From a virus, in IMG/VR virus record IMGVR_UViG_3300027861_000046, positions 1 through 48,103 of that record: a stretch of 48,103 nt of DNA. One strand, written 5' to 3'. This document shows, piece by piece, positions 14,278 through 37,117 of the stretch (position 1 is the stretch's first letter; every line of letters starts with the position of its first letter). Made by a program: the position numbers and the translations under genes. The notes beneath the pieces are model-generated. The model was not told where the DNA came from and searched no databases. It worked only from the letters and a program-made list of their open reading frames with translations.

Positions 14278-14285
14278 TATTTATA
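14278..14285 (-). promoter_or_regulatory. T4-type late promoter before gp8
   Basis: TATAAATA on the minus strand, 18-25 bp before the gp8 ATG, in the 44-bp gap after the gp7-like gene. It gives gp8 and the 2458-residue gene their own late start. Confidence 0.82.
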
Positions 14286-17300: not shown

Positions 17301-20300
17301 CTGTTGATGGCAATTCTCCACTAGAAGTAACCACTGCACTAGTTCCAACACCAACGATTGTAGAGTTTGGAGTATAGATTAATTCTTCTCCAGTTACGAA
17401 GAAGTGATTTTGAATTGTAAATATTCCAGTAGATGCATCTAATGCAGATGAATTGGGATTAAATTTCTTCGAGAAAATTGGAATATTATTATCAGTCAAT
17501 TCAAAACTACTTTTATTAATCCTATTGAGATTAATAGCATTATAGAATTTTTCATCAATACTTTCAGTTACGGAACCATATGATAAATCTAAAGGTTCAT
17601 TAACAACATCTATTAGAGAATAAAATGATTTACTGAATATTTCAATATCAATTTGACCTGTTTGATTTGCATCTGGGAAGAATTTAAGTATTAAATCACT
17701 TCCAGATATTTCTCCACCAAATGTTCCAATACCAGAAGCATCATCCAATTCACTATCATCATTAGATACTGAAAGGAAAGGTAATTGTTGAGTATAAACA
17801 TCAGATCCTTCATCAATTAACAAAACCTGATGGAGTGCTTTTGTAGAACCTATACTTACTTGAATTAAAGATTTTGATGCATTAAATAAAGATCTATCTA
17901 AGGTTTGAATTGTTGTAGAGGAAGCACCTACTGTAGAATAATATCCAGAATCGTAAATTATGCTTCTTTCTTGACCATCAAATTGTTCAGAAGATTTAAA
18001 TCTGTATGTACCAATTCCAGTAGATGTTGTACCAAATCCAACAATATTAGTTCTTATCTTAAGTTGATCAGAAGAAGTATTTTCGTGTATTAGTGATAAA
18101 ACTCCACTTCCCAAGTCAGTGCAAGTGAATATACCTATTTGATTTCCTGTCGAAGAACTCAAAACATTGCTATCAATATAGTATTCTGACATGAAAGTAT
18201 TTGTTCCAGCAATAGAAACATATAATCTCACATAATTCATGTCATTGGTTTCCGTATTGATCACTTGTGCATTAACATAAAGAGATTTGAAATTATTAGC
18301 ATCTAAAGAAATAATTGTTGTAGTTCCAATTCCTACACTAGTATTTTCTATATTTACAGAACCTGTCAAATTAACAAAACCTATAGACTGTGTTCCAACA
18401 CCAGATAAAGTTGAATTAAATATTTGCTTAATTACTTTTAGATCATAATTTGTATTAATTGTATCATTTGGAACAAATCTTAAGAAAGTTTTTTCAGTTT
18501 CGTCTGTAAATAAGTCAAAAATACCATAATTAAATTCTTGTCCAGATATGGACTCATTTTCAACAATGACTGATTCTAATTCATTTTTTAAAATAGTAAT
18601 ATCTGTTAACTGAAGTTCAGTACCATCTTCACTAGACACTCTTAATAAGTAATTAAAATATGTTCTATTATCAAGTTCTTCTACTAATAAAAATTCTGTA
18701 GATTCAGATTCTGAGTTTGAGAATTGATTTTGAAGATCATCAATTGTTAATACATTAAGATTTTTTAATTCTGTATAATTTGTAAGTCTTTTAGTTTTTA
18801 ATTTTAAAAATTTTGATTTTGAATCTACAACATCAACATCAATAACATTATCAAAATTATTAATAGTGTCTACTCTTTTCTCATCAATTACATCATAAAC
18901 TATAGTAATTCCATCTTTAGTAGTAGATAAACCTGCACTTGTATTTGATGTTATTCCAGTGTCCGCAAAATTTTTCAATCCACTTGTATGAACTAAACTT
19001 TCTACTGGAGATTGCTGATCTCTATATGTTATTGAACTCTTTACGGAATAAGATAAATTTTGATAGTAGTTATTATCTGGAGTGACCTGAAAATCTTCAC
19101 TTAATTTTCCAGTTTCAGTATCCCAACCAATATCTTTTGTGTTAGAATATCCAACATTAAATGTTCCTTCATTTAAATTTATAGACTTAATTGTTGCGAC
19201 AGTGCCAGATTCATTTCCAATAACAACCTCACCTACTGATAACTCATATGATCCTAAAACTTTTAAAGAATCTCCACCACTTCCTGTAACTTCCAAATCT
19301 CTTATTATCTTATTTGAAGATAAAGTTTCTCCAATAAAAAATTTGGATGGTTCTTGAACTACCTTGAAAGTAGGATAATCATTTTTATTAATTATTACTC
19401 CACTAAAATCTTGAATTGGTTTTGCAATTCCAGTATTTGTGGTGAATTCGGATACACCAATAGAGACTGTATCATTAACTCCCGCAGTGCTATATCCCTT
19501 TACCTTAAAGAATTTGTATCCATAATCAGAAGAATTGAATCCATCTCCATCGGAACTAGATTTTATAATACCTTCAATGAATACTTCATCTCCAACAGCA
19601 AATGGTGGAGTATTAAAAGTATTTCCAATACCAGGTGTTGATATTGTGCATGTGAAAGTATCACTATTTGATGATTCTACCTTTTCAATCGCAACACCAT
19701 TATTATTATTTGTTGTAAAAACTTTTACAGTTTCATCAGGTAAACCTTTTGGTTGTACTTTAATATCTAAAGAAGAAATTGCAGATCCTGTTATTTTTGC
19801 CTCAATAAATCCAGAATCTATTACACTTCCATCTTTAGAGTTTACAAGAGTGATTGATGGTGCAGATACATAACCTTCACCTCCACTAATTATTGATATC
19901 TGACTTAATGTATTTGAATCTTTTAATACAATATTTGGAGAAACCTTAACCTTAGGTCTTAAAGTTTTATCCGAAGAATAGGTAAATCTATTATTGATGA
20001 CTCTACTTTCTTTTATAGAACCTACATCTATAGATTTTACGTTTACGATTAAATCTACTCCAGAAACAGAGTTTGTATATTTTAAAGAAGGTAATTTTTT
20101 ATATCCAGTTCCTGAAGATATAATACTTAAAGATTTAACTGGCCCAGATGGAGAATTTGATATTGTTGAGTACTCTAATGTGTCACATTCGGTTGAACCA
20201 TAAGAAAGTTTTTCTGGTTTTTTGTCAATATTTACATTAAAGGTTGTTGCCGCAACACCACTAATAGTATATGAGTTATTATAGTCACTATCAACATACT

Positions 20301-36257: not shown

Positions 36258-36407
36258 ATACACGTCTACAGTCTCTCTGATGCTAATATCAACATTCTCG
36301 TCACCTTCTAGTCCTAAGATATCATTCCAATTGATATCTTCTAGATTTAAATCATCATAACACTCGATGTCTAATGTAACACTTATGATGCGTTTGTGTG
36401 CGTACAT
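36255..36407 (-). CDS. Small conserved unknown protein (50 aa)
   Basis: The product is MYAHKRIISVTLDIECYDDL, NLEDINWNDILGLEGDENVD and ISIRETVDVY. The strand-rich pattern 'ISVTLDxECYDDLNLEDINW...L.GLEGDENVDISIxE' matches a very common small phage protein that looks like a ferredoxin-like beta-alpha-beta piece. The TAG stop lies in the arm of the nested palindrome. Upstream of the ATG the CTCGT array begins. Confidence 0.75.
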   Translation of the reverse strand: MYAHKRIISVTLDIECYDDLNLEDINWNDILGLEGDENVDISIRETVDVY

Positions 36408-36410
36408 GTG

Positions 36411-36807
36411 TATCTCGTGTGATGTGTGTTATAATGTGTTATGTGTACACATATCTCGTAGTGTATATGTGTATCTCGTATGTTATGCGTAATGTTTATA
36501 CGCAAGCTCTACGTAATCACATGTATCTCGTGCGTACTCATCATCTATCTCGTATGTATCCTGGGTGTTATGTGTATCTCGTAGTGTATATGTGTTATGT
36601 GTATCTCGTACATAATGCTCATACATCTCGTCCTTATAGTACGTATAAGACTCGTTGTTATAATGATACTGTAACTCGTGGTCTTCGTAATACATGGGGT
36701 CTCGTAGAGATTTGTATGTTACTTGTATATTATACAGACATCTCGCACGTATGTCAAGTGTGATCTCGTGCGGCATTCATAAGCATTATTTATCAATCTC
36801 GACGAGA
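36411..36807. repeat. Spaced CTCGT repeat array (about 14 units)
   Basis: The tetramer CTCG, usually within ATCTCGTR, occurs on the plus strand at 36414, 36455, 36475, 36527, 36549, 36578, 36605, 36627, 36651, 36675, 36701, 36742, 36764 and 36798. Most steps are 20-29 bp, near two helical turns; larger gaps are 34, 41, 41 and 52 bp. Between units the DNA is rich in alternating TG/TA (such as GTGTGCGTACATGTGTAT). The rightmost unit is a palindrome, TCTCGACGAGA. The spacing is unlike CRISPR. I interpret it as an iteron-type protein-binding array next to the origin-like region. Confidence 0.8.
36483..36776 (-). CDS. Doubtful gene: Tyr/Asp/His-rich repeat-containing protein (97 aa)
   Basis: The minus-strand frame stays open through much of the CTCGT array and would encode a Tyr-, Asp- and His-rich protein: MPHEITLDIRARCLYNIQVT, then YYEDHELQYHYNNESYTYYK and RDTHNTYTLRDTHNTQDTYE. 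The internal repeats are the array itself read in shifting frames. There is no convincing ribosome site (GCTTATGA before ATG). It could be a real fast-evolving gene whose codons contain the array, or an accident of a stop-poor repeat. I favour the array as the functional element. Confidence 0.3.
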   Translation of the reverse strand: MPHEITLDIRARCLYNIQVTYKSLRDPMYYEDHELQYHYNNESYTYYKDEMYEHYVRDTHNTYTLRDTHNTQDTYEIDDEYARDTCDYVELAYKHYA

Positions 36808-36898
36808 AAAATGTGTGGGTCTCAGAGTTTTTATGCGGGGTGGTTGACAAAATGCTCCGAGTGTGATAGCCTGTCGGTAAAGGTCACAAGACCTGAGA

Positions 36899-36960
36899 GG
36901 TTTATCAGAAGGTTTATAAGGGGTTTATAAGAGTATTAGAGAAGGTTTATAAGAGTATTA
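36899..36960 (+). repeat. AT-rich iterons phased at 11/22 bp
   Basis: Four GGTTTATAAG-type units start at 36899 (GGTTTATCAG, diverged), 36911, 36922 and 36944, so the steps are 12, 11 and 22 bp, close to whole helical turns. The last two extend to the 17-mer GGTTTATAAGAGTATTA. This arrangement fits a duplex-unwinding element or iterons bound on one face of the helix. Confidence 0.85.
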
Positions 36961-36979
36961 AAGTATAATAACTAAGGGG

Positions 36980-37030
36980 TTTTCCACACATAAAAGGCAC
37001 TTATCCACAGAAATAACCCACTTATCCACA
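36980..37030 (+). promoter_or_regulatory. Three DnaA boxes at exact 21-bp spacing
   Basis: TTTTCCACA at 36980-36988, TTATCCACA at 37001-37009 and TTATCCACA at 37022-37030 all point the same way, with starts 21 bp apart (two helical turns). TTATCCACA is the strong E. coli box and TTTTCCACA the form reported for cyanobacteria. Three perfect matches with equal steps in 51 bp are very unlikely by chance. Confidence 0.8.
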
Positions 37031-37052
37031 GACTTGTTAGAAAACAGTTTTA

Positions 37053-37060
37053 TATTTATA
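37053..37060 (-). promoter_or_regulatory. T4-type late promoter TATAAATA beside the origin-like region
   Basis: TATAAATA on the minus strand would send transcripts leftwards through the DnaA boxes, the iterons and the CTCGT array. There is no gene start directly downstream for about 280 bp, so it may make a non-coding or priming RNA, or a long leader. Confidence 0.55.
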
Positions 37061-37117
37061 ATACCATTTAAAACCTATTTTTTAACCTATAATGTAACAA
37101 TCGATACACTTTACCCA

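Follow-up and report, generated by a model that had tools for sequence, protein, structure and literature searches.

T4 is the textbook example of a phage whose replication begins independently of host DnaA, a protein that it is not known to employ. T4-like cyanophages are among the most abundant viruses in the ocean, and the cluster of DnaA boxes studied here raises the question of whether such phages begin replication at a dedicated site with the help of the host initiator. The window, that is, the whole 48,103-bp virus fragment that was analysed, comes from a T4-like virus of marine Synechococcus and is a close relative of Synechococcus phage S-SKS1 (Llyrvirus, host WH7803). Our literature search, which had most subscription journals outside its reach, turned up no publication that describes a DnaA-box origin for T4-like cyanophages and none on a Syn9 transcriptome.

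Three DnaA boxes lie in the same direction on the plus strand of the window, at 36980-36988 (TTTTCCACA), 37001-37009 and 37022-37030 (both TTATCCACA), with the exact 21-bp spacing reported in the first-pass annotation. The GGTTTATMAG repeats described beside them were also verified (36899-36953, plus strand); they start at 36899, 36911, 36922 and 36944 (steps of 12, 11 and 22 bp), and the copy at 36899 (GGTTTATCAG) has one mismatch. A point missed earlier is that each of these repeats duplicates, in tandem, a portion of the leader described below. The whole window contains eight TTWTCCACA sites against 1.89 expected, a count reached by none of 100 shuffles, and two such sites within 60 bp were found in none of 300 Markov-random sequences of window length. 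The three boxes and their spacing are identical in S-SKS1, where the upstream repeat forms a cleaner array of five 22-bp copies (AGAAGGTTTATAAGAGTATTAG). There the element is intergenic (annotated as 'none'), occurs once in the genome and holds three of the nine genomic TTWTCCACA sites.

The boxes had been recognised correctly and their location, 36899-37030, was right, but the feature is wider (about 36841-37100), and what forms its core, namely a conserved counter-directed promoter, a leader and an AT-rich stretch, had been overlooked. The sigma70-type promoter (36844-36872, plus strand) comprises a -35 TTGACA at 36844-36849, a 17-bp spacer and a -10-like TAGCCT at 36867-36872, and is directed against the flanking genes. 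Its -10 hexamer is weak and it was absent from a consensus promoter scan; the R1 model, built on promoter plus leader, matched at 36841-36904 and spans it. The conserved leader follows at 36873-36898 (plus strand); its consensus in a 70-sequence alignment is GCTCGCTWAGATCACAAGACCTGAGCACATTTA, and it has diverged in the lineage of the window.

The AT-rich flank had weak BLAST matches in other cyanophages, from which a common plan was traced: TTGACA, 17-18 bp, TAnnnT, a leader (GCTCGCTWAGATCACAAG...ACATTTA), then a variable stretch and finally an AT-rich core. When viral contigs were scanned for promoter and leader, without regard to DnaA boxes, at least 120 matches came up; those listed, together with the named phages, make up 103 dereplicated elements, and the -35/-10 spacing is 17 or 18 bp in all 103 aligned. 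With the R1 model, 12 named cyanophages gave a single strong match each; most of them fed the model, so that these matches show single copy and not independent discovery. A second match in P-SSM2 was non-significant (E 0.25). Syn9, which was left out of the model, provides an independent check, with one weaker match adjoining paired TTTTCCACA boxes. The model found no match in S-PM2, P-SSM4 or S-RSM4, and therefore the element is not universal or has diverged beyond the model in these phages. Overall, it is a conserved DNA element of T4-like cyanophages, present once per genome, that resembles a replication start site.

Most phages have no gene behind the conserved promoter, and the longest downstream ORF opposes its direction in 60 of 74 elements. 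In S-8S53, S-8S55 and S-BM3, the promoter points towards a gene behind it and can therefore serve an mRNA too. Additionally, terminator-like hairpins facing incoming gene transcription were enriched, being found in 24 of 90 elements versus 24 of 838 control windows.

DnaA boxes are present in 45 of the 103 elements, and two or more in 42, nearly all elements having been picked by promoter and leader rather than by boxes. A few named elements (those of S-SM2, S-BM3, Syn33 and the S-SKS1 lineage) were found via box-bearing queries. Box density in the elements was 210 times that of flanking DNA, where 22 of 4502 random 300-bp windows contained a box, and scrambled motifs gave only 0-2 hits. Omitting the elements reached by box-bearing queries leaves the picture as it is, since the 99-element set used before the last additions already showed it (42 with boxes, 224-fold density). 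Most boxes (95 of 110) have the form TTTTCCACA, which is that of most cyanobacterial oriCs (PMC4674748), in agreement with the earlier assignment to the cyanobacterial DnaA type. Same-direction pairs were spaced 21 bp 18 times and 42 bp 12 times, with further pairs at 11-12 and 32-33 bp, and same-direction boxes followed a 10.5-bp period (n = 48, Rayleigh R 0.91; the nominal p is too small, since the sequences are related). Conservation in relatives had been named as a check by the first-pass annotation: the triplet is identical in S-SKS1, and the 21-bp spacing recurs in many cyanophage lineages.

The named box carriers are S-SKS1, S-SSM4, S-SSM6b, Syn33, S-SM2, S-BM3, S-8S53, S-8S55, AG-345-O18 and Syn9, and BLAST hits suggest S-RIM12 and S-CAM8 as likely further ones. 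The boxes are found in either orientation with unchanged letters. P-SSM2 and many other cyanophages carry the element without DnaA boxes, and DnaA is therefore no general requirement. A separate cluster of three TTTTCCACA boxes 12-13 bp apart was seen in S-PM2 at 19231-19264 (L286, 4232-4265); it overlaps the tRNA-Asn/tRNA-Leu gene junction, has no R1 match there and was left out of the count. A scan of viral contigs for TTATCCACA pairs yielded a mixed set and was likewise left out of the analysis.

Just past the boxes of the window lies an AT-rich core (37046-37090, unstranded; TTTTATATTTATAATACCATTTAAAACCTATTTTTTAA), a candidate DNA unwinding element, and only 0.15% of the 40-mers in the window are equally or more unstable. 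Averaged over all elements, the minimum of helix stability falls 140-200 bp from the -35. In 34 of the 45 DnaA-type elements every box lies before the core, and in six the boxes flank it; the median distance from the start of the last box to the core is 25 bp. The origin-like anatomy proposed earlier is supported, and the cluster of host-form boxes lies beside an easily melted AT-rich element. A T4-type late promoter motif, TATAAATA, lies within the core on the minus strand (37053-37060) and reads back through the boxes in the gene direction; it is not conserved in every element. The window has only four copies of this motif (5154, 14278, 28501 and 37053), all on the gene strand (minus), and those at 14278 and 28501 precede large structural genes, as would suit late promoters; the cyanophage late motif has been given as NATAAATA (PMC2984593). 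Early and late transcription could hence cross the element in opposite directions.

The slot occupied by DnaA boxes in some elements holds other arrays elsewhere. At least two TTGAGAA sites, spaced 11-12, 20-21 and 23-24 bp, were found in 29 elements, none of which has a DnaA box (0/29, Fisher p about 1e-9). The named carriers are Synechococcus phages S-SRM01 (Serangoon Reservoir) and, by BLAST hit, DSL-LC03, and the arrays also occur in many environmental contigs. Helically phased TTCTCAA/TTGAGAA arrays were seen in L147, L151, L169, L223 and L264 (S-SRM01). Further arrays in the slot are made of AGTAACT-type 11-bp units, GATACGAAT or GGATASTATCC; 11-bp arrays of the AGTAACT/AGATACT type were observed in the further cyanophages L150, L154, L156, L166 and L217. 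The tandem repeats of the elements have periods of 10-12, 20-24 and 32-34 only, as expected if proteins bind one face of the helix. Similar promoter variants (-10 TACGCT or TAGACT) bear both DnaA and TTGAGAA arrays, which suggests that arrays may have been swapped. DnaA boxes would then be only one of several interchangeable box arrays. We tentatively propose, as a possible account, a shared origin chassis (counter-directed promoter, leader and melting core) into which initiator-binding arrays are swapped: host DnaA boxes in many phages of marine Synechococcus, TTGAGAA boxes in the carriers given above, and at least three further phased arrays. If so, the choice of initiator would be a fast-changing trait, perhaps set by the host, rival phages or satellites. 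A nearby gene tracking the array type was sought and rejected, the associations resembling lineage markers among short unknown proteins.

The first-pass annotation set these phages in contrast to T4, but the plan of the element is closer to T4 oriE than that contrast implied. T4 oriE has evenly spaced 12-nt repeats, which have no proven role, and an early promoter (PMC3016281). In the T4 annotation, oriE (position 79355) is on the minus strand and lies upstream of gene 6, its primer RNA being antisense to gene 5; the cyanophage element lies upstream of gp6, past purM and small genes. Both are antisense to late genes and combine an early-type promoter with evenly spaced short repeats. Unlike the intergenic element, oriE lies inside gene 5 with the small genes repEA and repEB, and no plus-strand ORF of at least 40 aa starts between the promoter and 37165 in the window. 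DnaA is not mentioned for oriE in the review (PMC3016281), in contrast to the box-bearing cyanophage elements, and the R1 model had no match in T4. The likeness is one of position and architecture rather than demonstrated homology. The R-loop origins oriF and oriG also place a promoter before an AT-rich unwinding element (PMC3016281), but they use MotA middle promoters, with no phased boxes described, and cyanophages lack motA (PMC2984593).

We favour reading the element as an early-transcript origin that shares the layout and position of T4 oriE and, in many lineages, recruits host DnaA as well. Host RNA polymerase would start an early transcript at the sigma70-type promoter, opposite to the gene direction, and host DnaA would bind the three boxes, which are in phase with the helix. 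Together, DnaA on its boxes and the passing transcript may open the AT-rich core just past the boxes, where the phage T4-type replisome (gp41, gp59, gp61, gp43 and others, which S-SKS1 encodes) would load, and the early transcript might prime the leading strand. At a later stage, transcription directed by gp55 may start from TATAAATA on the opposite strand, pass back across the site and silence the origin. Judged from sequence, host DnaA very probably binds the element, and the element probably works as a replication origin; that both hold together is somewhat probable.

DnaA is a known transcription factor in bacteria, and the element might instead be a DnaA-controlled or DnaA-titrating early promoter, at which DnaA tunes an early transcript, either noncoding or antisense, or whose boxes sequester DnaA and so halt host replication. 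We consider this unlikely. It fits boxes downstream of a conserved promoter, the gene behind that promoter in a few phages, and three boxes per genome copy that would multiply with the phage; however, two to four boxes per genome would be a poor sponge early in infection, and titration leaves unexplained the conserved melting core, the fixed promoter-leader-boxes-core order, the helical phasing and the exchange of DnaA boxes for unrelated phased arrays at the same place. Constant promoter and core next to variable boxes, together with elements devoid of DnaA boxes, would also suit a T4-type origin fired by the transcript alone, with the boxes binding accessory factors and DnaA unneeded for firing. 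Such a mechanism has precedent in T4, where oriF and oriG need only a promoter and an unwinding element and the oriE repeats have no proven role (PMC3016281), but many lineages have strongly retained exact DnaA boxes at 21 or 42 bp, which suggests that the boxes are truly used. Along with the promoter reading above, this is the chief alternative to an origin that recruits DnaA, and we regard it as quite unlikely.

A structured noncoding RNA gene, with the boxes as parts of RNA stems, is very improbable. The promoter is conserved with mostly no gene behind it, and folding was better than that of shuffles for three of six RNAs, one of which includes a terminator hairpin; against this, folding was worse than that of shuffles for the window (z +0.9) and for S-SKS1 (z +2.6), the occurrence of boxes in both orientations does not suit RNA stems, and helical phasing is a property of DNA. 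An Rfam search of the element gave no match, and this candidate was dropped for that reason and for the missing extra folding in the window and S-SKS1.

The preferred reading, an early-transcript origin that recruits DnaA, can also be set beside two other types of origin. Like cyanobacterial oriC, the element has clustered TTTTCCACA boxes (PMC4674748). It differs from oriC in lacking an adjoining dnaN or dnaA, in having only two to four boxes with strict 21-bp helical phasing, and in its counter-directed promoter. Iteron plasmid origins that carry DnaA boxes (P1 oriR, F and pSC101) pack phased repeats, DnaA boxes in tandem and an AT-rich core into about 200 bp. The element shares these three features but belongs to a lytic phage whose genome measures 170-250 kb and encodes its own replisome. 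A nearby Rep gene was sought and rejected, as none was recognised among the neighbours, whose proteins match no Rep family in PHROGs or Pfam.

A turn in GC skew, also put forward as a check, did not appear: the cumulative skew has no turn at the S-SKS1 element, and in four other genomes its broad maximum lies 6-17 kb away from the element. This is weak evidence, because the skew is probably dominated by one-sided gene direction. If host DnaA does bind a dedicated origin in many T4-like cyanophages, the start of their replication would be tied to the replication control of the host itself. The element offers a precise 250-bp target in the cultured phages S-SKS1, Syn9, S-SM2, Syn33, S-SSM4 and S-BM3, through which where and how T4-like cyanophages begin replication becomes directly testable. 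It is located at 151.3 kb in S-SKS1, 52.65 kb in Syn9 and 58.1 kb in S-SM2.

In addition, a field of ATCTCGT / TCTCGACGAGA repeats was observed upstream of the promoter in the window (36400-36810). Similar repeats, TCTCGTCGAGA or ATCTAGTCGAGAT, lie upstream of the element in L002 (2670-3080) and L126 (3590-3880).
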